Assembly (NCBI GenBank): GCA_021292105.1 | Contig: CM037861.1 | Coordinates: 27,614,545 to 27,678,544, forward strand | DNA length: 64,000 nt | Origin: Anadara kagoshimensis | Taxonomy: Eukaryota > Mollusca > Bivalvia > Arcoida > Arcidae | Direction: 5' to 3' | Shown here: positions 6,001 through 34,800 of the stretch, in pieces | How positions within the stretch are numbered: the first letter of the stretch is position 1 | Layout of the letters: each line of letters starts with the position of its first letter | Made by a program: the position numbers and the translations under genes | The notes under the pieces: model-generated | What the model saw: only the letters and a program-made list of their open reading frames with translations | Told to the model about the DNA's origin: nothing | Database searches by the model: none

Positions 6001-7321
6001 TTTTTAAATGAAAACCATAATTTAGTTCTCCTGTGCATTGAGAAATTTTGCAAAAATTTTGGAAACTTGATCAAGTTTATATACCAATTGGGCCTCATTC
6101 AAAGCTACATCAGGGTATTTAGGGTCAGGTTGGTTATTGCTGTTAGGTTTTTTCCAGGTGTGATCATCAAGAATATTCCAATTAAATTACATCACATTTG
6201 AAGTTGTCCCGAGTACAGAAGGGATAATTTTGACATAGTTATATTTGTTGTGTTGTTATAAACTTCAAAAATTGCTCTATGTACAGAATTCAATTCACTT
6301 TTGGATGAATGAAAAATATTTTTTCTATTACGTCAGTAGATTTTGTATCAAGTTTTGACAATTTGTTGTGAATTAGTTTGAAAGTATGACTTTATTCTTG
6401 CGTTTTCCATGTGCATTCAATATGTAAATATACAGTAAACCTATCTTCTTTTTCAGAATTTAACTTACTGGCTTGACCAATGACATCTTCTCCATTATAT
6501 ATATCATCAAATGTCTGCGCTTGGATTGGAAACAAATAGTTGACACCACGAGCTGTAAGAAACAAAACTGTACATCTTACACAAGATATCGTAATTGTTA
6601 AAAAACTAAACAGTATTTATCTGTAAATTACCACACTTCAAACTAGAGTAGGTAGAAAAGATTAAGGTAGCTTGCTTGACTGTATATCTAGAATAGAGTA
6701 ACAATGTTTTATGCCCAATTCAAGATTCTTTTACCTATATAGAGGCAGCTAGCTTGTGGATGATGGGGTAAATTTTGTGTGTCCAGAATAAACCAGCGAC
6801 CTTCAGAAAGTGAACTGACCAACTTTCTCATACTAGGCTCTCAGTAATTTTGTTTGCCTAAAATTACTACCAAATAAAGGTAGTTTCCCCCAAGGTAATG
6901 ACTAAATTTTCCCAATTCAACCACTAAAATTCCCAAAGCAACAGTGATATACTAGAAAATTAAATCTAACTGTCCTTGCCTGCAAAATGTTAAATATTGT
7001 CACAATATAACATCTTTGCATTGAGGATCCTAAGCTATTGCAGAAATGCCATAATGCAGTTTGCTGTATTTTCAGAACTTCAAATTTTCCCAAATTTAAA
7101 AGGCAGAAGGTAGTTTTAAATAAATACAACAAAATCACTGTCGCTGTCTGGATCTGGAATAGAATTCGAACATGGGCAGTGAGAGGCATTATAATCCATA
7201 AACACACTCTTTAGATTACTTGACCATGGAAGACCTTGACTGTACACTGACATTCATACTCTGACATCTAGGGGTATGATACAAAGACTCTTCTACACTT
7301 CATTTAGTTATAAGCTAATTG

Positions 7322-7363
<42 letters not shown>

Positions 7364-10300
7364 GTTACCAAATAGCACCCCCTTTTTTTAAACAAATAGC
7401 AACTTAACTTACCTTTCAGTTTTTCAACTGTTGATGGAGAAATTTTAAAGTTTTTCAAAGCTCCAGCTTTTTGTTCAGGTGTTAGTTCAATCTCTGTGTC
7501 CCCATTTTCTTGTTCCTCTGTTCCATTTGATTCAGGTGTTTTATCAACAGTCTCTTCCTCTTCCGTATTGTTGTCATGGCCATTTTCATCACTGGTTTTT
7601 TCCTTTTTAGATTTCTTCTGAAATAAATATTAAATTAAAAGAAATTCATCATTTATGAAGAAATTGTTACAAGTAAAAGAACACCTGAAGTTGCCTACAT
7701 CCTTCATATATTTATTAATATATTAATATACTCTCAATTATGAGTCAATAAAGATTATAATAACTAGAACTGTCTCTTGAGAGCAAAATACCCCTGTCCC
7801 CAACATGTAATGTTTTCCCACGATGTTGACCTTTCCAATCTCATGACACACCTTTGCACCATGAAGATTATTCATGTGAAGTATCCAGACAGTAGTCCAA
7901 AGCAATTATGAGATAGATGGATAGATGGACAGGTGAACAGACAGACATAGCGATTCGTATATACCCCCTTCAAACTAGTTTGCAAGGAGTATAATAAGTT
8001 TTTCTGTATTTTTGAGCAAAATATATAAACATGAAATTTTCAACAATATGTGCAAAGTTCAACATTTTACCATGTATTGTAAAGTCCTTGGTACAAAAAT
8101 ATCCCCGGGTTTAAATATCAAAACCACTAAGAAGACTGAAATTAAGGGAAACAAAGGTGTTTTAGTACTTTTCAAGCAAGATTCTTTCACTAATCTTAAT
8201 GCAATTGATTCCGTGGAGTGGCGATGAAAACAGGGTTCCTACAGACATTTGGACTTCAAATTAAAGGACTTTTTAGGGTCTTATTTGCAAATTAAAGGCC
8301 TAATCAGAGGGACAACTTTAGCAAAAGATGTTGGTGAAAAGGCAATTAAATCAATAAAACAATTACTTACGTGTCAATAGTAATAACAATTGAAGTGGAT
8401 GTTTGAAGTAAGGCGTTCAGGAGGGTCAGGTAACTTTAAATTGCTCATTTGAACGAAAGTTATTAATAAATTTATTTATTTATTTATTTATATCATTTTA
8501 TTTGCAACCATTTAATATCAAAATACAGACATCAACTGACCAAATTCAAGGGCTTTTAGGGCCTTCAGGATAAATTCAAGGGCTTTTTAGGCTCAGACTT
8601 GTTTTTAGGGTCTTTTTAGGGCAAACCTCAAAATTTAAGGACTTTTCCAGGCCTGTACGAACCCTGGAAAAACAGTTACCCCAGACAAAAACACTGATCT
8701 TCTACAACCAGATAGAAAATGTTGATCTTCTATAGTCCGATCACATTATTAGTGATGAAAAAACATGTTTTGAATAGGTGGTGTGATTCAAACTTAGATA
8801 TCTCACTTGATGTAACTTCAGTAGACTTAAAATTTCACATGTGTTATTAGAACATATATTTTCATATTTTGAATATTTTCTTCAAATATTTTCAGCTTTT
8901 TCAATTTTTTGCTTTTAATTTATATGAATAAATTTTAATAAACTTTTTAGATAAAAGTTTGTTGAGAAAGTAATACTTGTTCGTTTGCAGTCTTGTTTTA
9001 AAGATAAGTATATAAAAATACTATTTTTCTATCTGCATGGTTAAATTTTTAATATTCACTGTAGTTTTTGAGTATTTGGTAGTCAAAATTTAGCCATTAA
9101 TTGAAAGGTAGCTGTTGTTCCTCTGATATTTTGATATGGCATATTCGACAGTTTCATTCATGTAAGTCTTTCATAATTTGGTTCTGATTGGCTAATACGT
9201 ATTCACGCGATACGGGTTTATACAGGTGTTTCTATTCCTAACTAGTATACGTCACGGACTAACCCATTATACTTGATTATGAATGGACAACAGGTAACAC
9301 AGCACATACATCAAAATAATGAATAATATTTATTTATTACACATGTTTGGCCAAGAACGACAAAAATTTTTAATATAATGTTTTAAAACTACAAAACCTT
9401 CAAGCTTATCTAACAAAGCCGCGATTTTTATCTCAAAACATGTAGTTTTTGGCGAGAATGCATTTTACTACGTGATACGCATCGTCTGAATTCGGATGCG
9501 CGTCTGATTAAAACGGGTTTTATTTTATTTTTAGACTTAATATGAGAAATTTAATCAAATTGTTTAAACATATGTTATAAAAATAACAGATCTACATATA
9601 GCATTAATGAAAGCTGAGGTAAGTAATCCACGATCTTTTTTAAACCACATCGGTTTTCATCACTGAATAAGTGATCGGACTATAGTTCTGTGACTAAACA
9701 GACTTTCTCACTTTATGATTTGCCAGAGTGGGATTGGAAACTAAGTGGCCACTCAGTCCCTCAGATTTATGTGTTAATATCTGCATTTCACTTTCTACTC
9801 TGTACTTTAATTACATGCTCAGGGAATAAATTAAGCCCAGGGAAATTTCTTTGCATAGTCATACAGATAGGTTGATTATTGCCTTGCTCTTAGCCAACAG
9901 GAGACTGTAATTTAATATTATTTGTTTTTTGATAGATTTTAACTGCAGCCATATAAAAACCAACAAATACAGACAGTCAGACACACCATTTTTACTGGTC
10001 TCCCTTCAATCTTTTTTTATATCTGAATCAATGTTTTCTACCTCGAAGTTATTATTTCCAAAAGCGTAATTGAATTCTACAATGTACCATCCCAATTTCA
10101 TTGGCTTATTTCTCCAGCAAACTCAAAATTTGCTATTAACTTACAAAGATGACATAAACATGGTTTGTACCAAAATGTATTCAGAGGTTTCATATCATAA
10201 GAATATGATTCTATAAATTGATTGGGTATTTGGCCATAGCTTGTCAGTATATTATATGTAACAATATCCATTTTGTGTTTGTGTAAAAGGAAAGGGAAAA

Positions 10301-14937: not shown

Positions 14938-15073
14938 AGAGCTTTGTAACAACTCCTAATAAAGTCCAACGCCTAATGAAGTCACTTCATTAGGCGTTGA
15001 CAATTTCGACGCCTAATGGGGTTCGCGCATCATTAGGCGTCGGACTTCATTAGGAGTCGTTACAGAGCTTCAA
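14938..15073. mobile_element. Foldback MITE with nested hairpin
   Basis: 'gctttgtaacaactcctaat' at 14941 pairs with 'attaggagtcgttacagagc' at the right end. Inside, ACGCCTAATGAAGTCACTTC+ATTAGGCGT is itself a perfect hairpin, and 'cgcctaatg'/'cattaggcg' occur four times. Confidence 0.75.
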
Positions 15074-15493
15074 ATACAACAGATCGTACCAGAACTTTAA
15101 ATGAGCAAACCCCTCATTAGAACATCTAACTCACGAGGAACTCATGGCGACAACATCACTAAATACACTTTGTCCAATGACAACGACGTCATTCTATTTT
15201 TCTCACCTGTGGTGTATTTCCGATAACCCACACTTATTCCAGAAGCGTGTGTAGTTTATTACAAGAGGCGCGACTAGCGTATCAACATTATGACGTAAAA
15301 ATAAAACTGCATCGAAATTCGAGGAAGGCACTGGGCAAACTCCTTCAAACCAAGTTATATTTTCAGTCCAGGGTGGGAATCGAACCCACTACCCGAACCT
15401 CGATGCGAATCAAATCAATAAAAACAAAAATCGAAGAAAAAAAAATTACGGAAGCGCTAGGACATGACTGAAAAAAGTATTAGGCTTTAGTAT
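15074..15493. other. Spacer with partial tRNA-like B-box
   Basis: No gene seen. On the minus strand 'gtgggttcgattcccaccct' (15370-15389) is a Pol III B-box, probably from a truncated SINE. An A-rich stretch lies at 15420-15450. Confidence 0.4.
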
Positions 15494-15583
15494 TTATTCT
15501 GTCCTTGTCAACATCAAACCTGGGTGCCCATCTTCATCTGTAAATTCTTCTCCATCTACTATGGGGTCCTCTTCACCATCTAC
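15494..15583 (-). CDS. Possible terminal exon of the exon-array gene
   Basis: Acceptor GTCTTTGTCGCAG, then 29 codons VDGEEDPIVDGEEFTDEDGH-PGLMLTRTE and TAA at 15496-15494. An AATAAA overlaps the stop. It is the only copy without a donor and the only one where the two halves (VDGEEDPI and VDGEEFTDEDG) are in one frame, so it looks like the parent or last exon of the array. No upstream coding exon outside the array was found, so gene status is unproven. Confidence 0.4.
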   Translation of the reverse strand, partial: VDGEEDPIVDGEEFTDEDGHPGLMLTRTE

Positions 15584-15934
15584 CTGCGACAAAGACTAGA
15601 AATCAAAACAATTAGTGGCGCAAGCGCTTAAAAATATAACAATACCCTGGGCGCCCATCGTCATCTGTAAAGTCTTTGCCATCCACCACGGGGGTCCTCT
15701 TCACCATCCACCTGCAACAAAGACCAGAAACTAAAAAACAATTCGTGGCACAAGCGCTTAAAAACTTACCAATACCCTGGGCGCCCATCTTCATCTGTAA
15801 AGTCTTCGCTATCCTCCACCGGGGTCCTCTTCACCATCCACCTGAACAAAAAAAACAAAAAAACAATTAGTGACGCAAGCGCTTAAAAACTTACCAATAA
15901 CCTGGGCGCTCATCTTCATCTCTATAGTCTTCGC

Positions 15935-16012
15935 CTTTGAAAAAAACCGTCGCGTCGCGTAGCGCGCGAAACGCCCCGTCCACCCCTTTCGCCGGATTGA
16001 ATACTTACCAAT
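15935..16012 (-). repeat. Variant spacer in the exon-like array (GC-rich insert)
   Basis: Four places in the array (near 15935-16012, 16308-16372, 18385-18449 and 21706-21770) carry a GC-rich spacer containing 'aaaccgtcgcgtcgcg' instead of the usual intron-like tract. On the minus strand it ends in a T-run and CAAG before a shortened exon-like block GGCGAAGATTTTACAG. The copies mark larger-scale duplication of array segments. Confidence 0.6.
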
Positions 16013-19000
16013 ACCCTGGTCGCCAATCTTCGTCTGTAAAGACTTCGCCATCCACCACGGTGGTCTTCTTCGCCATCCACCTGAAACAAAGACCAGAAAT
16101 CAAAACAATTAGTGGCGCAAGCGCTTAAAAATATAACAATACCCTGGGCGCCGATCTTCATCTGTATAGTCTTTGCCATCCACCACGGTGGTCCTCTTCA
16201 CCATCGACCTGCAACAAAGACCAGAAAACGAAAAACAATTAGTGGCACAAGCGCTTAAAACTTACCAATACCATGGGCGCCGATCTTCATCTGTAAAATC
16301 TTCGCCCTTGAAAAAAACCGTCGCGTCGCGCACGAACCGTCCCGTTAACCACTTTCGCCGCGATTGAATACTTACCAATACCCTGGTCGCCAATCTTCAT
16401 TTGTAAAGTCTTCGCCATCCACCACGGTGGACCTCTTCACCATCCACCTGCAACAAAGACCAGAAACCAAAAAAAAAAAAAAAAAAAATTAGTAGCGCAA
16501 GCGTTTAAAAACTTACCTATACCCAGGGCGCCCATCTTTATCTGTATAGTTTTCGCCATCCACCACGGAGGTCCTCTTCACCATCCACCTGCAACAAACA
16601 CCGAAAACCAGAAAACAACTAGTGGCACAAGCGCTTAAAAACTTACCAATACCCTGGGTGCCCATCTTAATCTGTATAGTCTTCGCTATCCACCACGGGG
16701 GTCTTCTTCACCATCAACCTGCAACAAAGACCAGAAACAAAAAAAATTAGTAGCGCAAGGGCTTAAAAACTTACCAATACCCTGGGAGCCCATCTTCATC
16801 TGTAAAGTCTTAGCAATCCACAACGGGGGTTCTCTTCACCATCCACCTGCAACAAAGACCAGAAACCAAAAAACAATTAGTAGCGCAAGGGCTTAAAAAC
16901 TTACCAATACCCTGGGCGCCCTTCTTCATCTGTAAAGTCTTCGCCATCTACCACGGAGGTTCTCTTCACCATCCACCTGCAACAAAAACCAGAAACGAAA
17001 AAACAATTAGTGGCGCAAGCGCTTAAAAACTTACCAATACCCTGGTCGCCCATCTTCATCTGTAAAGTCTTAGCAATCCACAACGGGGGTTCTCTTCACC
17101 ATCCACCTACAACAAAGACCAGAAACCAAAACACAATTAGTGGTGCAAGCGCTTAAAAACTTACCAATACCCTGGCGCCCATCTTCATCTGTAAAGTCTT
17201 CGCCATCCACCACGGGGGTCCTCTTCACCATCCACTGCACAAGACCAGAAACCAAAACAAAAAACAATTAAAAAACAATTAGTGACGCAAGCACTTAATA
17301 CTTACCAATACCATTGGCGCCCATCTTCATCTGTAAAGTCTTCGTCATCCACCAGAGGGTTCTCTTCACCATCCAACTGCAACAAACACCAGAAACCAAA
17401 AAACAATTAATGGCACAAGAGCTTAAAAACTTACAAATACCCTGGGCGCCCATCTTCAACTGTATAGACTTCGCCATCCACCACGGGGGTCTTCTTCACC
17501 ATCCACATGCAACAAAGACCAGAAACCAAAAAACAATTAGTAGCGCAAGCGCTTAAAAACTTACCTACACCCAGGGCGCCCATCTTTATCTGTAAAGTCT
17601 TCGCCATTCACCACGGGGGGTCTCTTCAACATCCACCTGCAACAAAGACCAGAAACCAAAAAACAATTAGTAGCGCAAGCGCTTAAAAACGTAGAAATAC
17701 CCTGGGCGCCTATCTTCATCTGTATAGTCTTTGCCATCCACCACGGGGGTCCTCTTCAACATCCACCTGCAACAAAGACCAGAAACCAAAAAACAATTAG
17801 TAGCGCAAGCGCTTAAAACCTTACCTATACCCTGATCGCCAATTTTCACCTGTAAAGTCTTCGCCATCCACCACGGGGGTTCTCTTCACCATCCACCTGC
17901 AACAAACACCAGAAACCAAAAAACAATTAGTGGCGCAAGCGCTTAAAAACTTACCTATACCCTGGGCGCCTATCTTCATCTGTATAGTCTTTGCCATCCA
18001 CCACGGGGGTCCTCTTCCCCATCAACCTGCAACAAAGACCAAAAATCAAAACAATTAGTGGCGCAAGCGCTTAAAAATATAACAATACCCTGGGCGCCCA
18101 TCGTCATCTGTAAAGTGTTCGCCATCCACTACGGGGGTTCTCTTCACCATCCACCTGCAACAAAAAACAGAAACCAAAAAACAATTAGTTGCGCAAGCGC
18201 TTAAAAACTTAAGAATACCCTGGGCGCCGATCTTCATCTGTAAAGACTTCGCCATCCACCACGGTGGTCCTCTTCACCATCGACCTGCAACAAAGACCAG
18301 AAAACGAAAAACAATTAGTGGCACAAGCGCTTAAAACTTACCAATACCATGGGCGCCGATCTTCATCTGTAAAATCTTCGCCCTTGAAAAAAACCGTCGC
18401 GTCGCGCACGAACCGTCCCGTTAACCACTTTCGCCGCGATTGAATACTTACCAATACCCTGGTCGCCAATCTTCATTTGTAAAGTCTTCGCCATCCACCA
18501 CGGTGGACCTCTTCACCATCCACCTGCAACAAAGACCAGAAACCAAAAAAAAAAAAAAAAAATTAGTAGCGCAAGCGTTTAAAAACTTACCTATACCCAG
18601 GGCGCCCATCTTTATCTGTATAGTTTTCGCCATCCACCACGGAGGTCCTCTTCACCATCCACCTGCAACAAACACCGAAAACCAGAAAACAACTAGTGGC
18701 ACAAGCGCTTAAAAACTTACCAATACCCTGGGTGCCCATCTTAATCTGTATAGTCTTCGCTATCCACCACGGGGGTCTTCTTCACCATCCACCTGCAACA
18801 AAGACCAGAAACAAAAAAAATTAGTAGCGCAAGGGCTTAAAAACTTACCAATACCCTGGGAGCCCATCTTCATCTGTAAAGTCTTCGCCATCAACCACGG
18901 GGGTCCTCTTCCCCATCAACCTGCAACAAAGACCAGAAACCAAAAAACAATTAGTAGCGCAAGCGCTAAAAAACTTACCAATACCCTGGGCGCCCTTCTT

Positions 19001-21809
19001 CATCTGTAAAGTCTTCGCTATCCACCACGGGGGCTCTCTTCACCAACAACCTGCAACAAAGACCAAAAATGAAAAAACAATTAGTGCCGCAAGAGCTAAA
19101 AAACTTACCCTGGGCGCCCATCCTCATCTGTAAAGTCTTCGCCATTCACCACGGGGGGTTCTCTTCACCATCCACCTGCAACAAAGACCAGAAACCAAAA
19201 CACAATTAGTGGCGCAAGCGCTTAAAAACTTACCAATACCCTGGTCGCCCATCTTCATCTGTAAAGTCTTAGCAATCCACAACGGGGGTTCTCTTCACCA
19301 TCCACCTACAACAAAGACCAGAAACCAAAACACAATTAGTGGTGCAAGCGCTTAAAAACTTACCAATACCCTGGGCGCCCATCTTCATCTGTAAAGTCTT
19401 CGCCATCCACCATGGGGGTCCTCTTCACCATCCAACTGCAACAAAGACCAGAAACCAAAAAACAATTAAAAAACAATTAGTGACGCAAGCACTTAATACT
19501 TACCAATACCATTGGCGCCCATCTTCATCTGTAAAGTCTTCGTCATCCACCAGAGGGTTCTCTTCACCATCCAACTGCAACAAACACCAGAAACCAAAAA
19601 ACAATTAATGGCACAAGAGCTTAAAAACTTACAAATACCCTGGGCGCCCATCTTCAACTGTATAGACTTCGCCATCCACCACGGGGGTCTTCTTCACCAT
19701 CCACATGCAACAAAGACCAGAAACCAAAAAACAATTAGTAGCGCAAGCGCTTAAAAACTTACCTACACCCAGGGCGCCCATCTTTATCTGTAAAGTCTTC
19801 GCCATTCACCACGGGGGGTCCTCTTCAACATCCACCTGCAACAAAGACCAGAAACCAAAAAACAATTAGTAGCGCAAGCGCTTAAAAACGTAGAAATACC
19901 CTGGGCGCCTATCTTCATCTGTATAGTCTTTGCCATCCACCACGAGGGTCCTCTTCAACATCCACCTGCAACAAAGACCAGAAACCAAAAAACAATTAGT
20001 AGCGCAAGCGCTTAAAACCTTACCTATACCCTGATCGCCAATTTTCACCTGTAAAGTCTTCGCCATCCACCACGGGGGTTCTCTTCACCATCCACCTGCA
20101 ACAAACACCAGAAACCAAAAAACAATTAGTGGCGCAAGCGCTTAAAAACTTACCTATACCCTGGGCGCCTATCTTCATCTGTATAGTCTTTGCCATCCAC
20201 CACGGGAGTCCTCTTCCCCATCAACCTGCAACAAAGACCAGAAACCAAAAACAATTAGTAGCGCAAGCGCTTAAAAACTTACCAATACCCTGGTCGCCCA
20301 TCTTCATCTGTAAAGTCTTAGCAATCCACAACGGGGGTTCTCTTCACCATCCACCTGCAACAAAGACCAGAAACCAAAACACAATTAGTGGCGCAAGCGC
20401 TTAAAAACTTACCAATACCCTGGTCGCCCATCTTCATCTGTAAAGTCTTAGCAATCCACAACGGGGGTTCTCTTCACCATCCACCTACAACAAAGACCAG
20501 AAACCAAAACACAATTAGTGGTGCAAGCGCTTAAAAACTTACCAATACCCTGGGCGCCCATCTTCATCTGTAAAGTCTTCGCCATCCACCATGGGGGTCC
20601 TCTTCACCATCCAACTGCAACAAAGACCAGAAACCAAAAAACAATTAAAAAACAATTAGTGACGCAAGCACTTAATACTTACCAATACCATTGGCGCCCA
20701 TCTTCATCTGTAAAGTCTTCGTCATCCACCAGAGGGTTCTCTTCACCATCCAACTGCAACAAACACCAGAAACCAAAAAACAATTAATGGCACAAGAGCT
20801 TAAAAACTTACAAATACCCTGGGCGCCCATCTTCAACTGTATAGACTTCGCCATCCACCACGGGGTCTTCTTCACCATCCACATGCAACAAAGACCAGAA
20901 ACCAAAAAACAATTAGTAGCGCAAGCGCTTAAAAACTTACCTACACCCAGGGCGCCCATCTTTATCTGTAAAGTCTTCGCCATTCACCACGGGGGGTCCT
21001 CTTCAACATCCACCTGCAACAAAGACCAGAAACCAAAAAACAATTAGTAGCGCAAGCGCTTAAAAACGTAGAAATACCCTGGGCGCCTATCTTCATCTGT
21101 ATAGTCTTTGCCATCCACCACGAGGGTCCTCTTCAACATCCACCTGCAACAAAGACCAGAAACCAAAAAACAATTAGTAGCGCAAGCGCTTAAAACCTTA
21201 CCTATACCCTGATCGCCAATTTTCACCTGTAAAGTCTTCGCCATCCACCACGGGGGTTCTCTTCACCATCCACCTGCAACAAACACCAGAAACCAAAAAA
21301 CAATTAGTGGCGCAAGCGCTTAAAAACTTACCTATACCCTGGGCGCCTATCTTCATCTGTATAGTCTTTGCCATCCACCACGGGGGTCCTCTTCCCCATC
21401 AACCTGCAACAAAGACCAGAAACCAAAAACAATTAGTAGCGCAAGCGCTTAAAAACTTACCTATACGCAGGGCGCCAATTTTTATCTGTATAGTCTTCGC
21501 CATCTACCACGGAGGTTCTCTTCCCCATCCACCTGCAACAAACACCAGAAACCAGAAAACAACTAGTGGCGGAAGCGTTTTAAAACTTACCAATACCCTG
21601 GGCGCCCATCTTCATCTGTAAAGTCTTCGCCATCCACCACGGGGGTACTCTTCACCATCCACCTGCAACAAAGACCAGAAACCAAAAACAATTACTGGCG
21701 CTCATCTTCGCCCTTGAACAAAACCGTTTCGTCGCGCGCGAACCCCGTCCCCTCTTTCGTCGTGATTTATACTTACCAATACCCTTGGCGCCCATCTTCA
21801 TCTGTAGTA

Positions 21810-24388
21810 TGCCTCTTCTGGTCTTGTTTGGTGGTTGTGCCTTGGAGTTGTATTGTGTCGTGTTCTTGGTTGTCTGCCTGATGCTAAATATGTGTTGATG
21901 TTTGCCTCTCCTGGTCTTGTTTAGTGGTTGTGCCTTTGAGTTGTATTATGTCGTGTTCTTGGTTGTCTGCCTGATGCCAAATATGTGTTAATGTTTGCCT
22001 CTTCTGGTCTTGTTTGGTGGTTGTGCCTTTGTGCTGTATTATGTCGTGTTCTTGGATGTCTGCCTGATGCTAAATATGTGTTGATGTTTGCCTCTTCTGG
22101 TCTTGTTTGGTGGTTGTGTCTTGGAGTTGTATTATGTCGTGTTCTCGGTTGTCTGCCTGATGCTAAATATGTGTTGATGTTTGCCTCTTCTGGTCTTGTT
22201 TGGTGGTTGTGCCTTTGTGCTGTATTATGTCGTGTTCTTGGATGTCTGCCTGATGCTAAATATGTGTTGATGTTTGCCTCTTCTGGTCTTGTTTGGTGGT
22301 TGTGCCTTTGTGCTGTATTATGTCGTGTTCTTCGATGTCTGCCTGATGCTAAATATGTGTTGATGTTTGCCTCTTCTGGTCTTGTTTGGTGGTTGTGCCT
22401 TTGAGTTGTATTATGTCGTGTTCTTGGATGTCTGCCTGATGCTAAATATGTGTTGATGTTTGCCTCTTCTGGTCTTGTTTGGTGGTTGTGCCTTTGTGCT
22501 GTATTATGTCGTGTTCTTGGATGTCTGCCTGATGCTAAATATATGTTGATGTTTGTCTCCTCTGGTCTTGTTTAGTGGTTGTGCCTTTGTGTTGTATTAT
22601 ATCGTGTTCTTGGTTGTCTGCCTGATGCCAAATATGTGTTGATGTTTGCCTCCTCTTCTGGTCTTGTTTGGTGGTTGTGCCTTTGAGTTGTATTATGTCG
22701 TGTTCTTGGTTGTCTGCCTGATGCCAAATATGTGTTGATGTTTGCCTCTCCTGGTCTTGTTTGGTGGTTGTGCCTTTGAGTTGTATTATGTCGTGTTCTT
22801 GGTTGTCTGCCTGATGCCAAATATGTGTTGATGTTTGCCTCTTCTGGTCTTGTTTGGTGGTTGTGCCTTTGTGCTGTATTATGTCGTGTTCTTGGTTGTC
22901 TGCCTGATGCCAAATATGTGTTGATGTTTGCCTTTTCTGGTCTTGTTTGGTGGTTGTGCCTTTGAGTTGTATTATGTCGTGTTCTTGGTTGTCTGTCTGA
23001 TGCCAAATAAGTGTTGATGTTTGCCTCTCCTGGTCTTGTTTGGTGGTTGTGCCTTTGAGTTGTATTATGTCGTGTTCTTGGTTGTCTGTCTGATGCCAAA
23101 TAAGTGTTGATGTTTGCCTCTCCTGGTCTTGTTTGGTGGTTGTGCCTTTGAGTTGTATTATGTCGTGTTCTTGGTTGTCTGTCTGATGCCAAATATGTGT
23201 TGATGTTTGTCTCCTCTGTTCTTGTTTGGTGGTTGTGTCTTTGAGTTGTATTATGTCGTGTTCTTGGTTGTCTGTCTGATGCCAAATATATGTTGATGTT
23301 TGCCTCTCCTGGTCTTGTTTGGTGGTTGTGTCTTTGAGTTGTATTATATCGTGTTCTTGGTTGTCTGCCTGATGCTAAATATGTGTTGATGTTTGCCTCT
23401 TCTGGTCTTTTTTGGTGGTTGTGCCTTTGTGTTGTATTATGTTGTGTTCTTGGTTGTCTGCCTAATGCCAAATATGTGTTGATGTTTGCCTCTTCTGGTC
23501 TTGTTTGGTGGTTGTGTCTTTGAGTTGTATTATGTCGTGTTCTTGGTTGTCTGTCTGATGCTAAATATGTGTTGATGTTTGCATCTTCTGGTCTTGTTTG
23601 GTGGTTGTGTCTTTGTGTTGTATTATATCGTGTTCTTTGGTTGTCTGCCTGATGCTAAATATGTGTTGATGTTTGCATCTTCTGGTCTTGTTTAGTGGTT
23701 GTGCCTTTGAGTTGTATTATGTCATGTTCTTGGTTGTCTGCCTGATGCTAAATATGTGTTGATGTTTGTCTCCTCTGGTCTTGTTTAGTGGTTGTGCCTT
23801 TGAGTTGTATTATATCGTGTTCTTGGTTGTCTGCCTGATGCTAAATATGTGTTGATGTTTGCCTCTTCTGGTCTTGTTTGGTGGTTGTGCCTTTGAGTTG
23901 TATTATGTCGTGTTCTTGGCTGTCTGCGTGATGCCAAATATGTGTTGATGTTTGTCTCCTCTGGTCTTGTTTGGTGGTTGTGCCTTTGAGTTGTATTATG
24001 TCGTGTTCTTGGCTGTCTGCGTGATGTCAAATATGTGTTGATGTTTGCATCTTCTGGTCTTGTTTAGTGGTTGTGCCTTTGAGTTGTATTATGTCGTGTT
24101 CTTTGGTTGTCTGCCTGATGCCAAATATGTGTTGATGTTTGCATCTTCTGGTCTTGTTTAGTGGTTGTGCCTTTGAGTTGTATTATGCCGTGTATTTGGT
24201 TGTCTGCCTGATGCTAAATATTTGTTGATATTTGCATCTTCTGGTCTTGTTTGGTGGTTGTGCCTTTGAGTTGTATTATGTCGTGTTCTTAGTTGTCTGT
24301 CTGATGCTAAATATGTGTTGATGTTTGTCTCCTCTGGTCTTGTTTGGTGGTTGTGCCTTTGAGTTGTATTGTGTCGTGTTCTTGGTTG
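21810..24388. repeat. 93-bp satellite array (about 28 copies)
   Basis: Unit begins 'tgcctcttctggtcttgttt' and ends 'aaatatgtgttgatgttt'; period 93 bp (for example 22081 to 22174). It directly abuts the exon-like array at ~21807. As 93 = 31 codons, long frames appear on both strands (31-residue repeats such as HNTTQRHNHQTRPEEANIN on minus); the spread of differences does not suggest coding. Confidence 0.93.
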
Positions 24389-26021
24389 GCACCAAGTGCA
24401 AATTTCTTTCGTCTGTTTTATAAAATCTGAAATTCCTCCAAAAACATTAAGGTACATGTATACTCTCACATGCAAAGCATTACCTCAGCTAAACTTGGTA
24501 TAATATATTTTGGTCCTTAGGATATCTTTTTCAACATCTTGCAAAAAATGGATTTACAATTTTGTTCCTAGCTCTACCGATGAAAATTGCTGTAAAATTG
24601 AAGCTGGTATAATATGGAATTAGTACCATTTTACCGTATACAATAGGACCCGTAATTACAATCCGTTATCTTTTACTTATGAAGCAGAATTCAAAGAGTT
24701 GTTTGAAATGATATGACTAAATTAAGATACTGTAAACGTATTTATTTTCGCGGTGTATTATTTTTCGCTTATTTCGCGGTCGTTCGTTTTGCGCAATAAA
24801 TAAGTACTGAGCGAAAATGATATTATGCTTATTGTGTTATAGCGCATTTTTCAGAAACACTAAAATTAAACTTCGTAGAAATGTCTAAATTTCCAATACC
24901 GCGAAAATACATATACTCGAAATTAAATACGTGCACAGAACTCGGTAATTGACTGAAAATTTGTTTTTATATCGCCTTAAAGGGAAAAGCACAACGTTTC
25001 CCATCCCCTTCCTTTTTCGTTTCTACAGTACTGCATTTTGTTCTCTGGGGATTTCGCTGTTGTTACAACAACAGTTGTAAACTCTTACAAATTATATAGG
25101 CCTTCTAAAATATGGGTTTGTTTTTCAATACAATATCGTGATGAAAAGTTGATTCGCAATCTGATATTTACGATAATTACACCTTTATGCGTTATTTAAA
25201 CTCGCCCGTGCTTATAAACACTCCGCCATTAGATCGTGGACGAACTCCTATACATGAGTAGTGTTCGGATTCGTAGTTAATGCATAAACAATGCATGTTT
25301 CTCCATGATGTAGACGCAATTAACACCTGTATCCCCTATACATAAATGCACTGGTCCATAATGAAAGGTCAACCGGACAGGTCTATGTTGGCCTTTACAT
25401 GAGACTAGTCCGGAAAATGTGTCCCCTAATACATTAACATGTATTTTTATGTTGGTGATTTCCGACCGGATAAGAATCTAATTCTTTATTCTATCCAGTT
25501 TCGGTTCCAAGTCGGAGTTTTCGGTCTCAATACGCGGTTGTCTTGCATTGTCGTCTGTAGTATCGGGTATCGGACCATAGCCTTGCACAATGGGGTCAAC
25601 GCTTGGTAAAAACATGTTGTTACGCCAAACCTAAATCTGGTTTTTACCAAAAGTAATTATCATGGGACCACTTTAATGCTGGAAGATTCTAATATAATTT
25701 AATGTCATTTTACTTCAGCAACAATTACTTTAAAACTTGATTTGAACGTTTCCATAGTTTTCTAGTAAGACGTTCCATTTAATTAAGTTTTAAATTAATT
25801 ATACACATATTTCAACCCCTGATAATTTTGCACTTAATCGAAGTTTACATAATTAAATTTATAAATAACTAGATTAAATTGATTGGATAGAAACAAATTT
25901 AAAAATGTATAATATCCTGATGAAGTTAAAATTGTCTGGGGTTGTTCTGCACATACAAACCTCTCCCATTCCAAACAACGTTATGTCATGGGCTACTAGT
26001 AAACGAGCCCCCCCCCCCTCA
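24389..26021. other. Non-genic interval with one likely MITE
   Basis: 24729-24930 has loosely inverted ends ('aaacgtatttattttcgcgg' and 'ccgcgaaaatacatatactc'), a familiar kind of mollusc MITE. 25200-25600 is unique-looking but shows no exon I can support. A poly-C run lies at 26009-26017. Confidence 0.45.
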
Positions 26022-26290
26022 AAAGTTTAATGGTCGTCATCACAAAATTGTTGATAAGTATGATGTCCCTGTATCCAAACTCGCTCTGGATAAGTTTAAC
26101 CTTCCATAGTTCCATGTTCCTTTCATTCTAAGTTTTTTGTGGCAGGGTGTAGCTAGCTAAACAGGAGGTGCTTACCCTTCCGGAGCATCCGGTCTCACTT
26201 TCCTGGTGGAAATTCGCCTGTTTCAAAGTTTTTTCACTTTTGAATTGTGGGTTGGACATGGATTGACAAGTAGGCCTATAATTGTTTTTA
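26022..26290 (+). mobile_element. Truncated retroelement 3' end (RT C-terminus plus tail)
   Basis: FNGRHHKIVDKYDVPVSKLA-LDKFNLP then TAG at 26107-26109, followed by 'gtgtagctagctaaacaggaggtgcttacccttc' type tail (in pieces) and 'ggacatggattgac'. It is abruptly 5'-truncated at a poly-C run (26009-26017). Confidence 0.75.
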
Positions 26291-26410
26291 GTTTTGCGTC
26301 ATCTTTCACAAACTTTGCAGTATGTAATATCGTAAAACATTTGTTTGTTTGGCAATGGCTTTCAACAATTTGACTAGTGCCTTTCAAATGCGTTTTTTAT
26401 TATTGCTATT

Positions 26411-26510
26411 GTCATGTGCTACTTTTGAATTTTAATGAAATAATATAATTCAATCATGTGCTACTTTTGAATTATATTATTTCATTAAAATTCAAAAGTA
26501 GCACATGACA
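26411..26510. mobile_element. Compound palindrome of the GTCATGTGCT family
   Basis: Three arms: GTCATGTGCTACTTTTGAAT at 26411, the same again at 26453, and the inverse ending AGCACATGAC at 26509. The inner pair is a near-perfect 55-bp hairpin; the outer arm also pairs with the right arm over about 42 bp. Confidence 0.85.
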
Positions 26511-26778
26511 CTATTAATACACATACATGCATATATACATTTGTATTGGCAGCGTTGTAATAGTTTTTATAGTTGTACGTTTGGCAAAGTTATTGATAGC
26601 TTTGAATATTGTTGAGTTCATTGTGTTTCATTGTTCCTCTGGTTTTTCTTTTTCTTTTGTGTTGTTCGTCTATTTCTTTTTCACATTTCGTCAAGTTGCT
26701 AATAGCTTTGTCTATTGTTGAGTTTATTTTGTTGCATTGTTAGTCTATATTTATTCACGTATTGTCCCGTTGCTAATA

Positions 26779-26838
26779 GTGTCATGTGCTGATTTTGACT
26801 GCATTGTTTTAATAAACATAATAATCAGCACATGACAG
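26779..26838. mobile_element. Palindrome of the GTCATGTGCT family
   Basis: TGTCATGTGCTGATTTT ... AATCAGCACATGACA, ~58 bp with a short AT loop. Confidence 0.8.
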
Positions 26839-28659
26839 TATGACATGTATGTTCCAAGTCGTTTACAATGTTTCCCATTTTAACATTAATTCTAAAGGGA
26901 TTGAAAGTTTAAAATTGCAGATAATTGTGTAAACTCTCAAATTTGCTGAAACTATACCACTGAATATTATTCTCGTTAGTATATCGTGTTATTTTGATAC
27001 ATACCGGTATTACTTTCTAACCAATCAAATCGTTTAGATACAAGACAACTTCCTACGTGATTTCTGTGTAGACAATTTATCAATTTATTTCCAATTTAGT
27101 TTCTTTCTACAGCTAATTATACACGTCGTTTCTGGATCGGATGTTCGAGGATCAGATTTCCGACCGCTCTAACAAAGTTACATTAGATTTAGATATTCTC
27201 GGATTAGATGGATCTGGTGTTAAGGAATTAAAAATTGATAGTAATCAATGTCATCTATAACACTGTTTGGGCGTTTGACGTCACATTTAGCTCTGTGGTG
27301 AACTTGGACACCGAATTCTTCATCATCATCTTTATCTAATTCCTCTACATTAGAGATTAAATAAATATTACTATATTAACTATTATTACATATGTACATA
27401 ATATGGGTATTGGGTAGTACGGTTAGTGATATCACACAATGTTATGTCTAGTTGCCCAATCTAGGAGCAAGATGTTCGATGCTACCTAGGCATGTGATTA
27501 CACAGTTTACAGTCCAACCTGCCTTAAAGGCCACCTCTATGTAAGCGCCACCTGCTTATAAAGGCCACTAGAATTGTATCCCAATTGTTCTTTGTTCATA
27601 TTATTTGAACCTGTAAATAAAGGCCAACTGCCCATAAAGGCCACTTTTACATCCTTGGGTGGCCTTTATAGACATGTTTGACCGTATTATATGCCACTGT
27701 AGCACTGTTTTGGCGTTTGACGTCACATTTAGCTCTGTGGTGAACTTGGACATCGAATTCTCAAGTTACAAGACAGATTATTATAATCACTGTAAAAACT
27801 TTTCTTGATTTCAAGTCTTTTAAAAAGCAGGAATTCGCCATTTCAAACATTTATGATTTTGTCAGAAATGTATCTAGGATTTTCAAATGGCAAATTATTT
27901 TTTGACGAAATTTGAAATCCTCATTAATAGATATTCAATATAGTCAGATAGTTCATCGTTCGTGTTCTGTTATAATACGTGTATTATCTTTATTAAATCA
28001 TCACATTCCGATAACTTGCATATAAGCGTCTGAAAAGGATTACCATGTGTCACCAAAATTGAAACCACCCACACGGAAAGTCTAGTTTGTTGATTTCGTG
28101 TAACAAGATTCTTAAATAGCTTATTCCATTAAGTTGCAATCCTAGAAATAATTATACACAATTCTAAATCGGATTTTTAGTTGGGATTTCCGTCTTAGAT
28201 AACGGATTTCCAAACTGGATTAAACAGTTCTACAACAAAGACACTTCCTAATATAGATATTGATCCAATAATCAGATTTTATCACATCAGCTGATTTTCA
28301 TACTTGAATAATATAAAAAAAAAGATATAAAATATTTTATTATGATCATCAAAGACGGTAAAACATTCATTCTTTTAATATACTAGAAAATAAAACGGTG
28401 AAAACATGAATGTCGTGTTGTGTGTACGTTTTACACGTGTTTTAAATCTTTTATTGGTAAATTTGAACATTGATTTGCCTTAACGTGCAATATGTTCTTG
28501 TAAAGTGTCAAACCTATCACTGTGTAGCAACGTACAATTCGCATAGATTGTGGTGACAGATTTCCGGCTTGTAGGAACAGAAATTAACGTACAACCGGGG
28601 AGTCGACTAACGAAATTTTGATATAATATCTGTCCCGAATTTTTAAAAAGTTTTCAGTT
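26839..28659. other. Upstream region of the C16orf89-like gene; direct repeats
   Basis: 'ggcgtttgacgtcacatttagctctgtggtgaacttggac' type sequence occurs at ~27270 and ~27713 (direct, ~60 bp). A GGCCTTTATA repeat lies between. No exon seen. A GATATAATAT near 28619 could be TATA-like, about 40 bp before the ATG, but the transcription start is unknown. Confidence 0.45.
27515..27690 (+). repeat. Dispersed 'aaggccaccttta' repeat
   Basis: Plus-orientation partner of 3468-3640: 'ccttaaaggccacctctat', 'attgttctttgttcatatta', 'gggtggcctttatagacatg'. Roughly 75-80% alike by eye. Confidence 0.65.
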
Positions 28660-28858
28660 ATGAAGTTAAGTTATAAATTAGGAATAACGGTTTTGATCTC
28701 AATTTTCCAATTTGAAATCTGTAATTGTCAAAATGCTAACACAACTCTCCAGTATTTGGACAGGACATTTGATGCTCTTCAGAGAGCATTGCAGTTTTTT
28801 GACCGGGAACACCAAACAGTAAATGTGGACGGATGGATGACTACGAGAGCGATGCACG
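28660..28858 (+). CDS. C16orf89: C16orf89-like exon 1 (signal peptide)
   Basis: The ATG at 28660 is the first ATG after an AT-rich leader with in-frame stops. The exon ends CACG|GTAAGT in phase 1. Hydrophobic core LGITVLISIFQF, then mature TTLQYLDRTFDALQRALQFF, an amphipathic helix typical of this family's N-terminus, and VDGWMTTRAMHG. Confidence 0.9.
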
Positions 28859-31800
28859 GTAAGTGAGACTAGTCGCGTCTTTAACTTATTTTTTCCAGGT
28901 TTTTTGTTAAGTTTTCACTTTGCTTTGGTATTGTTATTTGGACATGAATTGGTATATTTTTGATTGTATTTTCTCCTGTAATTCAAAAATTTCAGAAAAA
29001 AATCATGCGAGAAATAGTTTATAAAACTGTCAATAAAATACACATGTCCGGATACCTAATAATAAGTAACATTATGGAGCAAGTAAATTCGACCTTCGTT
29101 TAAAATGGTTTAAGTCTTTTGAGTTTTGTTTGGGTTTCAAATTAAAAAAATCAGTTCTAAAGTATAATAAAGTCCATTTCATTCGTTACACACGTTGCGG
29201 GTGTACCTAACTAAACAGGAGATGCTTACCCTTCCAGAACAATCAGTCTCACTGTCCTAGTGGAAGTCACGTGTTTGACTTACTTTGTCAGTTTTTAAGT
29301 CTTTACTTTGCTTTGGTATTGTCATTTGGACATAGATTGGTCTTACTCTTCCAGACCATTCTCTGGTTAAAGTCACGTGTTTGGCCTTATTTGCATGTTT
29401 TCACATTGGTTTTACATTGTCATGTGTGCATGAATTGTTGTTTGTTTTTGACTGTACATTTATTCCGGTCTAAACAATATCAGTGTTAAGCTGTTAGCAT
29501 ACTGCATTATTTCTTCATGTTTGTGCTGTTTTGCTTGCTTTATATTTAAAACAAGTGTATGATTTTATTTTCATTGTTTCTACTGTATTATTTCAACTTT
29601 TTCGTTATGGAATTTTTACCCTTGCTATTGTAAGTGTCACGTACCATTTTTTAAAATTTAATTATAAAATGCGTTTAATTTAATTAAAAAGTCAGGTATA
29701 TGACATAAGCAACATGTTATTCAGTTTTAAATTCAATATGTTTTAGAAAGATTCGTTTTCCTCATGATTCATCTAAGAAAAACATTTGAGGAAATAAGTC
29801 GTTTTATCAAGAGTAACTCATCGGCCCACAAATGGATGTAATTTCATTCTTCATTCATTGATATTGATCATTATGACACCAAACGTGCCTTAAACCATCC
29901 CATACTAATAAAAAGTTGGTATTTCATTTCATTTGCACATATATTTACAGTCAGTACCGACCTGTTGAAAGTTTAACATTGCGCTGACGAGCATGACTTG
30001 AAATTCGGCTGCCGAGTGGACTACATGTGGATAGTTAGAGATGGGGAAGCTGGCGAGCGATAGATTTCAGCAGCTGCCGAAATATAGGGACCAAGATAAG
30101 CTATTGATTCGGCACCAATTCTTTGGCTCAGTGTTAAACTTTCGATAGGTCATTACTGTGAATCTACAGTACAGGCCTGTCGATTCGGCACCAATTCTTT
30201 GGCTCAGTGTTAAACTTTCGATAGGTCATTACTGTGAATCTACAGTACAGGCCTGTCGATTCGGCACCAATTCTTTGGCTCAGTGTTAAACTTTCGATAG
30301 GTCATTACTGTGAATCTACAGTACAGGCCTGTCGATTCGGCACCAATTCTTTGGCTCTGTGTTAAACTTTCGACAGGTCATTACTGTGAATCTACAGTAC
30401 AGGCCTGTCGATAGGTTAAAAGTAAGCCAACGAATTATTGTCGACTCGGTGCCTCATCTCGGTTTCTCGTTATCTATTTGTCGACAGCAGCTAAAATCTA
30501 TCGCTCGGCAGATTTTTGGTCATTAGCTATCCACATATCAGCCATTCGACAGTCGAGTTTCAACTCCTTTTCGTTACCTTAGTGTTAAACTTTTGACAGG
30601 TCTGTACTGTACTTCGCAATATGGGCTTTTTTCATATTTTATACCAGTTAATGGATAAACAAAGATATAAAGGATGGAGTTACTGAACATGAGAAGGTTT
30701 GAGAGTATCTTTGCCGTTATTACCGCCCATTATAAAAGCAAAATGGAAAGATAATACCACGGATTTTGTGTCGTGATTATCAATCAGCACAGACAAAAAC
30801 GTGTTCCATTATAACGGGGTGTCAGTTTTATGTATTCTGTATTGATCAAAGTATATTTTATATAATGTAATAAACTGAGTGTAATAAAATACAAGGATAT
30901 ATTCAATTGTCACGTGCTACTTTTGAATTTTTATGAAATAATATAATTCAAAAGTAGCACATGACACAATGATAAAAAAATATACTAATCCAATCATGTC
31001 CAAATCACAATCCCAAATCAATGTAAATCTTTGAAACTGAGCTTCCGCGAGGAGAGTTATGTCGGGTGCTCTGTTTGGCTAGCTACATTCGCCACGTGCT
31101 TATTCAAAATTGTGAGTTAAAGGAACATGGAACTATGAGACGTTAGATATATTCAGGGTAATCCTGGACACAGAGACATCATACTTATCAACAATCATGA
31201 GATGACGGCCACAAAACTTTTTTTCGGTGCCCTGATATACCTATGCTTGCAATATCCCTGGGTCGATAACTATTTGCAAGCAGCACAGTTTGTGCTCATT
31301 TGTATACCAATTGTTTGCTGGAAAATTACCAAAAACAACAAATATGTTTTCAATCAAAATCTCTTACATTTTGTTGATCTAGCTCGTATTCGAAGTTCAC
31401 CCTTTTTCCATTACGCCACTGGATACCATTTTATTATCATACGTGCACCCAAGCTCCGAAACAGCGCCCACCTCCTAGCTCCGTATGTCGCGAGGTAGAC
31501 GCTGCAGACAGCCCTCGACCAAATTTCAAGAATCTTGAAATTTCGGGAAATGTCTCGTTACCAATTATTGCAAAAAGTTAACTATTTCTGTATCTTACGC
31601 AATTGATAATTTTTTCGGGTTCATTTAACCTTCGAGTTTTAATGAACACCAAAAATTCTATTTAGTGATTTGAATTGTATGAAATTGGTTATGTTTTAAA
31701 GGGATTATTTTTTCTTCCGCAAATGCAGTGAAATAGTGAAATGCGAAACTAAACTGCAAAAGAAACTGCTATATAATGGATGCCATCAAGCAGTGCGCTG

Positions 31801-34800
31801 AACAAATTCGCCTTGAAATCGGAACACCTACAGACAATAAATGAAAATGGAGAAATCTAATCTTCCTGTTGGATAATGAACGAGTATGGCCTTTCAATAA
31901 TGCATGTTTTATATGGTATTTATAGTTTATACAACTGCCACGGTATTTGTTGCACTCCTTACGTAGACCGAATTATTACTGTAGTCAACGCACCTTTTAT
32001 CGTATCGATATGGGGCCGTGGGGTTCGGTCTATCCTCTATGAGCCTGCTATATCTTGCAACCCAGTCCCATTGGACTATCAATGTGCTCCCTCCATTAAA
32101 TTGCCCTCGGTTCATGGAACTGAAGGGGATTTAAAAGACTTTTTATTTGTAAAATAAATTTATATTTCCTACAAAACTTGATGTTTTGTCTAATGGAGGA
32201 CGGATTCATTACAGAATTAAAATAAAAAAATATCCATAGTATATATTATAGGTATTTTTTTTTAAATTTTATAATGAATCTGGTCCCTATGGATCATCTG
32301 CTGTATTCATACTGGCTCGTCAACATCTGCATAGACTTACAATGGCTATTCAAAGCTATGCTGTATTCATACTGGCCCGTCAACATTTGTGTAGACTTAC
32401 AATGGCTATTCAAAGCTATGCTGTATTCATACAGTCCCGTCAACATCTGTGTAGACTTACAATGGCCTTTCAAAGCTGTGCTGTATTTATACTGGCCATT
32501 CAAAGTTATACTGTATTCATACTGGCCTGCCAACACCTGCATAGTCTTACAATAACTATTCAAAGCTATGCTGTATTCATACTGGCCCGTCAACATCTGT
32601 GTAGGCTTACAATGGCCTTTAAAAGCTATGCTGTATTCATACTGGCCTGTCAACATCTGTGTAGGCTTACAATGGCCTTTAAAAGCTATGCTGTATTCAT
32701 ACTGGCCATTCAACATCTGTGTAGGCCAAATATGGCCATTCAAAGCTATACTGTATTCATATTGGCTGTCAACATCTGTGTAGACTTACAATGGTCTTTA
32801 AAAGCTATGCTGTATTCATACTGGCCATTCAACATCTGTGTAGGCCAAATATGGCCATTCAAAGCTATACTGTATTCATATTGGCTGTCAACATCTGTGT
32901 AGACTTACAATGGTCTTTAAAAGCTATGCTGTATTCATACTGGCCCCTCCACATCTGTGAAGACTTACAATGGCCTTTAAAAGCTATGTTGTATTCATAC
33001 TGGCCCATCAACATCTGTGTAGACTTACAATGGCCATTCAATGCTAAATTGTACACATACTTGTAGACTTAACTGGTTTGTCAAAGCCAAGGTATACTTG
33101 ATCTGTAATGACCATCAGTTTTTACATAGGCTTGCCAGCCATTTTTATGTAGACTTATACTGGACAGTTAATATCTACAACATGTATTACAGACTTTTTT
33201 GGTATGTCAGTATGTACATTACATAAAATGCACCCTTATTGGTACATACATGTACTTGTGCATAAAGATGTAAACATGTGTCAACTTTTCATGGTATTTA
33301 TATACTGTGTACATGTTTTATTACATGATGATGTCTGAACACTTGTGGTATTTGAACATTATATAAAATGAATAAAACTTAGCTGTGGAAGTAAAACATA
33401 CACCTGGTAATATTTTGCATGAAATTACCACTAGAGATAGTACAGTAGTTCCTTAGGCAGGGCATTTTCTCTGTAAATTGGTTATGGGTTTGAACACAGA
33501 GTGCAAGACCAGTTACTTTTGCCTGATACATGCATTGTGCATAAATCCAGATATGAAAATCCTGAAAAATGGTCTTGAGACTGCTGTTATAAAAATCCCA
33601 CACTTAGTTAAGATATACAGAATCCCCACTCAAATTAAAATTATTTGAAAAGCATGTTCATTTTAATTCAAATGGAAATTACTGGTTTCAGTGGTTTGGC
33701 TATGTGCAATGTAAAATTGTTGATCATAATATGGGATGCAGTAACTTTTACCATAGAATTATTGATGAAATGTCATTTCATTCCCTAAGTCTTTTTTTGT
33801 GTTTAGCATAATTCAGGTGTTGAATATGCTTGTAAAGACAAACTATTAGTGGATATGGGAACTGATAACTTCACAAATGTTTGCATGTATAACTATTGCA
33901 GTTGTAAGGTTTATTTTTTGAATGGTATTTTACACTCCTGTCAAGAATTTTTTAGTTAATTGAGACAGCAGGTTCAAAAATTATGGAAGAAGGTAGAGTG
34001 CTGTAACCAGCCCTGGGCAAGTGAACTGATAAACCCTCACACTAGACTGTTCTGCACACTATGGATATGTCCTGGGTTAAAACTTAGGTGGTTACAGGCC
34101 ACCAAGGCCCCAGGGAGGGGGGGGGGGGCTGTAATGTATGAAGTAAGAAAGTAGGTCACTGTGACCAATCTTTCATGTCTGTCTGTTTCTTTAAGCTTTA
34201 TGAATTTTGATCATAGAGTAAGACAGTTTAAATTTGGTTGGTATGTATAATTGTTGGAGTTGTAACACATGGAGTATGATAATAGGTCACAGTGACTTAC
34301 TTTGTCATGGTTGAATGAGTTTTCCTTTAATGTAGGGGCCAAAATGGGATAAAAGGGGAAATGGTTGGTATGTATAATTGTTGGAGTTGTAACACATGGA
34401 GTATGATAATAGGTCACAGTGACTTACTTTGTCATGGTTGAATGAGTTTTCCTTTAATGCCCTCATACATTGTATCTATATATAACTTTTAGAGCTTAAA
34501 GGTATGAAGTATTGAAGTAGGTCACTGTGATCTAAATTTCATCTTTTAATGAATGTTTTTATAACTTTTTGACTTTTTTACAAATAAGATTTCACACTTA
34601 AAATGTGTACAACAGGTGTGACCCATCTAAAGGTAATTTTTAGCTCATCTGTGGCTCAGATGAGCTATTGCCATGTATCTTCGTCCGTCGTGCATCGTGT
34701 GTAAACTTTTCACATTTCAATCAACTCCTCCAAAACTACTGAGCCAAATTGGATGATATTTGGCAGTAATGATGTCTAAGTGAGGGACTTTCAGATTTGC

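Follow-up and report, generated by a model that had tools for sequence, protein, structure and literature searches.

A tandem array of exon-plus-intron modules in Anadara kagoshimensis behaves as neutral satellite DNA

The described systems closest to the locus reported here are the satellite arrays of molluscs, the tandem exon duplications of protein genes and the repeated exons of the non-coding RNA Firre. The locus itself (C5:27630038-27636352) is a tandem array made up of 48 units, each about 130 bp long, on the minus strand of a 64,000-nucleotide stretch of the Anadara kagoshimensis genome (C5:27614545-27678544, referred to as the window; the assembly comprises 1.115 Gb in 36 contigs). 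In two reports on Crassostrea gigas (PMC7492417, PMC8268682), head-to-tail units, homogenization in blocks, neutral drift and several short arrays per genome are described, and all of these have a counterpart here. However, the C. gigas arrays are reported to be satellite-DNA-like, dispersed and borne by mobile elements, whereas the present unit is a complete intron layout beside an exon-like core, and its close relatives lie on one chromosome with flanks partly in common. In the tandem exon duplications of protein genes (reported, for example, in PMC9741552), an exon and its adjoining intron are duplicated head to tail and the exon length is a multiple of three, as in the consensus unit described below, but in the present case no frame is kept and no host gene is identified. 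For Firre, PMC4820808 describes a local repeat lying in exons of a non-coding RNA, these exons being transcribed and the function of the repeat RNA having been tested. If the arrays reported here were spliced, Firre would be the closest working analog, the repeat consisting in both cases of repeated exons of one RNA with several copies in one place. Unlike Firre, the present arrays are known from DNA alone, and related arrays lie on three chromosomes.

In its variation, the window array behaves like a neutral satellite. The reading preferred here, with a probability of roughly 0.56, is that of a satellite family which arose by amplification of a once-spliced module, the copies in the window array now drifting neutrally. 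The founder unit would have been an exon with a short intron (donor, branch site, pyrimidine tract and acceptor) that multiplied by tandem and block duplication; the arrays would have spread along C5 inside larger duplicated segments, and the window copies would now drift as a non-coding satellite. If a minus-strand transcript crosses the array, many units could splice, giving an RNA of repeated 72-nt exons. The full intron layout recurs in several diverged families, which suggests past splicing of the module; the step from looking spliceable to being spliced is one that we infer from the DNA sequence.

Anatomy and variation of the array

An earlier note on this DNA had proposed a tandem array of about 48 minus-strand modules. 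This is borne out by Tandem Repeats Finder, which reports a period of 130 with 47.8 copies and 80% matches at 15519-21701, and by cutting at a conserved core, where 49 cores delimit 48 units. Together with a partial first exon, the units occupy 15494..21808 (minus strand, as for all array features below). The consensus unit reads GTAAGTTTTTAAGCGCTTGCGCCACTAATTGTTTTTTGGTTTCTGGTCTTTGTTGCAG followed by a 72-nt block, and its intron stretch is laid out as GT, CACTAAT, pyrimidine tract and AG. The integrity of the units was scored from their alignment: the acceptor ends in AG in 41 of the 48, the donor starts with GT in 39, the exon length is a multiple of three in 37 and the frame (WMVKRTPVVDGEDFTDEDGRPGY) is open in 34, with 20 units passing all four tests. 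For example, the 72-nt exon block at 21591..21662 passes all four, and the 58-nt intron block at 21533..21590 shows, on reading and alignment, GTAAGT, a CACTAGT branch-like site, a pyrimidine tract and TTGCAG. The exon-plus-intron anatomy is real, an observation held with high confidence, but its universality is not: the earlier note had assigned the full module to every unit, and in the alignment the 72-nt exon block is present in 36 of 48 units and the 58-nt intron in 28.

The units are 130 bp long exactly in 20 cases, and 37 of the 48 are distinct. Exon lengths other than 72 nt are 71 (five units), 73 (two), 68 (one), 44 (three, with introns of a CpG-rich type) and 90 nt (the terminal unit). 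By eye, four of the seven AG failures are alignment-boundary effects (three units with CpG-rich introns and the unit at 17235); among the nine GT failures, the one at 19175 is also such an effect by eye, and another belongs to the terminal unit, which has no donor. CpG-rich intron variants, with approximate 3' boundaries, lie at 18386..18451, 16310..16375 and 15939..16008. The first intron (21663..21776, 114 nt) is of the CpG-rich type at its start and of the standard type at its end, and is preceded by the partial first exon (21777..21808, from sequence reading and unit cutting), which is entered mid-exon from a 93-bp minisatellite.

The array grew by block duplication. Neighboring units are no closer to each other than to the rest (mean identity 0.796 for adjacent units and 0.793 for all pairs), and runs of units with at least 97% identity appear again at offsets of 9 (seven units), 16 (five), 17 (five) and 26 (five).

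For the coding test, each distinct alternative base was counted once per site, so that duplicated blocks are not counted repeatedly. On this count, 0.97 distinct alternatives per site are observed in the exon and 1.03 in the intron. The proposed frame shows 53 non-synonymous, 14 synonymous and 3 stop changes (expected 52.1, 14.9 and 3.0), the second frame 43, 18 and 7 (expected 46.1, 16.8 and 4.6) with two stop losses, and the third 48, 16 and 4 (expected 48.5, 13.8 and 5.2), likewise with two stop losses. An excess of silent changes among the array copies is absent in all three frames, the ratios being near neutral. Also, no protection of splice sites is seen within the array: variation is about the same in the exon, in the intron and in the splice-site blocks, with 1.0 alternatives per site in the donor and acceptor segments and 1.33 in the branch segment. 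On the sequence side, the changes are even over codon positions and splice sites, one part of the outcome that the earlier note had named as speaking against its own proposal, an acidic repeat protein built by the exon array.

That proposal does not stand. Besides the absence of a silent excess, 1-nt slips, later duplicated along with their units, break the exon frames, the terminal exon is off the array frame, no start exon is seen by eye in the adjoining upstream sequence, and neither a protein relative among the candidates scored nor a single-copy parent gene is found. Moreover, no reading frame is kept in any family read, which argues against a protein. Nothing points to a protein product of the array, and it is concluded with high confidence that the array is not a working protein gene. 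Head-to-tail related units, lack of coding constraint and block duplication are all observed, as in satellite DNA.

Among 7994 candidate proteins scored, none is a relative at E ≤ 10; for the single terminal peptide, neither a Pfam family nor a PDB match is found, and Rfam and tRNA scans of the window give 0 matches. The tandem consensus peptide hits Pfam Asp5 (9.9e-6, 26.1 bits, barely over the cut-off of 25), along with weaker families, and a frame of the 93-bp minisatellite hits Complex1_30kDa (8.4e-5, 23.6 bits, cut-off 22.5); both matches were set aside because no single stretch passes alone, the queries are internally repeated and the names are mutually discordant. In viral contigs, a 31-mer has 0 matches, and a 16-mer matches seven contigs and a degenerate pattern four, with one match each, which is taken as chance. 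Literature searches on exon-derived satellites, mollusc tandem exons, repeated-exon RNAs and splice-site satellites brought up no recognized description of this family.

Relatives on C5, C13 and C17

All genome matches to a 25-mer (at least 54, with up to two mismatches), to a 33-mer core (at least 71, with up to three) and to a 53-residue peptide (at least 84) lie on C5, which makes up 6.6% of the assembly, these counts being lower bounds. The peptide matches fall within arrays, except for a solitary fragment near 43.205 Mb. The 130-bp unit, for which 40 of 163 candidates were scored, gives at least 152 matches and leads to further arrays on C13 and C17, reached through the exon core alone. 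Arrays of the family thus lie at seven sites on C5 and at two on C17, and search matches alone indicate one more on C13 (22.880-22.892 Mb).

The C5 sites are the window, L053 (27.839 Mb), L020 (42.38 Mb), L021 (42.45 Mb), L022 (43.21 Mb), L023 (46.75 Mb) and L024 (48.09 Mb). The window, L022, L023 and L024 have a 3' flank in common, and L020 and L021 have long common flanks, which indicates segmental duplication. As regards transposon-type dispersal over many chromosomes without common flanks, the close relatives are found on C5 only, with flanks partly in common, and the distant ones on C13 and C17 among the candidates scored. A solitary 41-base piece of the exon core, with no intron, lies at L022:2713-2753, about 2 kb from the L022 array.

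The arrays L020 and L021 have a 123-bp unit, with 27 donor-bearing modules and four donor-less ones. In the donor-bearing modules, the exon is 72 nt long in 16 of 27 and the intron 50 or 51 nt in 22 of 27; all tests are passed by 5 of 16 modules in L020 and 9 of 11 in L021. The exon of this subfamily differs from the window consensus at 7 of 72 sites, with five codons changed and one change silent. A different insertion interrupts each of these two related arrays (L020:5850-6180 and L021:3715-4260), and thus the insertions postdate the array duplication. L053 is a decayed array in which standard and CpG-rich introns alternate; these two intron types have their boundaries in common at the same exon core. 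Both the 123-bp subfamily and L053 keep the splice layout, and with C17 added, the intron layout of the window is found again in diverged relatives at other places in the genome.

On C17, a 5.4-kb stretch (L054 and L055; C17:16107500-16112900) holds 25 introns, 23 of 54 nt and two of 53 nt, which carry GTAGGT, CACTAAT and TTTGTAG or TTTTGCAG. Between these introns lie, in alternation, a short exon (44 nt long in 11 of the 12 cases that are complete, 40 nt in the other) and a block of 241-351 nt that holds GGTGGACGT repeats and whose length modulo 3 varies. This array keeps the donor, branch and acceptor layout and has no constant frame, the longest one being of 315 codons in a predicted spliced product of 4053 nt and of 150 codons in the unspliced stretch. 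With 40 of 161 candidates scored, a 219-bp block with two introns has at least 54 matches, those listed being all on C17; at least 46 of them are full-length, 41 of these having the full identical score. They lie in two arrays more than 1 Mb apart, near 16.104-16.137 and 17.236-17.257 Mb. The array of L054 and L055 is very uniform and is open in more than one frame.

Readings of the splice-like cassette

Several results weigh against the preferred reading, that of a once-spliced module whose copies now drift neutrally. A genome search with the 53-residue peptide found no single-copy parent or founder gene, and a simple chance origin of the cassette is possible. Within the window array, the share of non-consensus bases is slightly lower in the acceptor (0.042) and the pyrimidine tract (0.051) than in the exon (0.073), above which the branch segment stands (0.113). 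Between subfamilies, what may be hints of past splice-site constraint are modest. From the window to the 123-bp subfamily, GTAAGT/CTAAT/CAG positions are unchanged in 14 of 14 cases and other intron positions in 31 of 44 (p = 0.016), but this contrast falls to p = 0.13 without one 7-nt deletion, and a stricter GT/AG/CTAAT set gives p = 0.08 and 0.29. In seven aligned copies of L053, GT/CTAAT/AG positions are kept in 58 of 63 cases, compared with 261 of 343 for the rest of the intron and 363 of 432 for the exon, the splice sites giving p = 0.002 versus introns but 0.06 versus exons, with copies that are not independent. For C17, the exon core matches the window at 43 of 44 aligned bases (three gapped positions) and the introns at 41-45 of 52-53 (six to eight gapped positions), depending on the gap cost; this contrast is alignment-dependent, with p from 1e-5 to 0.05 across alignments and from 0.003 to 0.05 after re-alignment of the branch site, and is biased because the C17 array was found through its exon.

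The alternative that survives best, although improbable, takes the cassette as fortuitous: an ordinary satellite that happens to hold GT, CTAAY, a T-rich tract and AG, and that was never spliced. The neutral variation of the array and the lack of a parent gene would agree with it, as would the loose version of the motif order, which appears in 56 of 3000 dinucleotide shuffles of the consensus unit; the strict order of donor, branch, pyrimidine tract and acceptor appears in 1 of 3000 and speaks against it, the pattern having been chosen after the motif had been seen. Also difficult to accommodate are the boundaries that CpG-rich and standard introns have in common at the same exon core, and the C17 array, which holds two further introns of the same layout.

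Next comes the proposal, unlikely as well, that transcription and splicing of the arrays continue and yield non-coding RNAs of repeated exons, selection acting on splicing and exon motifs and not on a protein. The complete donor, branch, pyrimidine tract and acceptor of many units point in this direction, as do the persistence of the layout in the diverged C17 array, the closer match of its exon core than of its introns, and the donor, branch and acceptor sites, which differ less than the intron body between subfamilies. The exon core holds GAAGA and GATGAAGATG, which we take to resemble splicing-enhancer motifs. A precedent is offered by Firre, a non-coding RNA in which a local repeat within exons can be functional (PMC4820808). 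Nonetheless, the splice sites are unprotected within the window array, broken donors and acceptors are copied along in blocks (in the unit list, the donors CTACGT and TTATAT three times each and the acceptor TTGCAT three times), and the bias of the C17 comparison bears on this proposal too. Doubtful, in turn, is its genome-wide form, a satellite family with a unit of exon plus minimal spliceosomal intron that would be kept across chromosomes by real splicing, the long arrays of C5 and C17 giving repeated-exon non-coding RNAs under selection on branch site, acceptor and exon core.

The weakest reading, in which about 48 symmetrical exons arose by duplication within a functional protein gene, is highly improbable: equal entry and exit phase of the 72-nt exons, the open frame in 34 of 48 units and the 72-nt exon of 16 of the 27 donor-bearing modules in the 123-bp subfamily speak for it, but against it stand the missing silent excess, the five codons changed among seven exon differences between subfamilies, exons that are truncated or shift in length by 1 or 4 nt, the immediate stop of the terminal exon in the array frame, the varying C17 exon length modulo 3 and the lack of a relative among the proteins scored.

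If splicing of the units does take place, it would follow that satellites can carry complete introns and spread them, and splice-site choice could be measured on a natural series of nearly identical units (48 here and at least 46 full-length two-intron blocks on C17). If, as in the preferred reading, the units are relics, the array would be a clear case of a spliced module turned satellite, and would caution against taking arrays of this kind for giant genes of repeat proteins.

Array ends and neighboring repeats

The terminal unit (15494..15583) has no donor and reads, from 15583 to 15494, VDGEEDPIVDGEEFTDEDGHPGLMLTRTE followed by a stop, that is, 29 codons and a stop overlapped by AATAAA. 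Its frame differs from that of the array, in which a stop is reached at once, so that both the donor-less end and the frame offset described in the earlier note are found on reading. In L022, L023 and L024 the last unit ends differently, and thus the stop and AATAAA are not a common gene end there. The 3' flank at 15063..15493 (minus strand) is common to the window and L024, and to L022 down to 15302. Blocks of the 3' flank collinear with L023 were considered as exons of a spliced copy and rejected, the block edges showing no splice pattern by eye; they are read as a probable segmental duplication, the window copy having received insertions afterwards. An imperfect palindrome of about 130 bp lies in the 3' flank at 14940-15069, with 78% identity to its own reverse complement.

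At the other end, the 93-bp minisatellite (21810..24388, minus strand, 27.7 copies) runs into the first unit. It shows a strong strand asymmetry and is crossed by long open frames; its changes lie at the neutral expectation in three frames (24 of 27 units, three of other length having been dropped). No start exon is seen by eye in 21810-32300, a more distant exon being possible.

Elsewhere in the window, a fragment of a reverse transcriptase frame lies at 55326-55967 on the minus strand (Pfam RVT_1, E = 0.018, under the cut-off). The frame at 7315-7629, also on the minus strand, is presumably similar to the beginning of a DEAD-box helicase (DDX21-like), although the only match in Pfam is weak and unrelated. 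Other large minisatellites are found at 970-2687 (period 30, 57 copies), 40447-43253 (period 41, 68 copies) and 48481-51123 (period 60, 47 copies).

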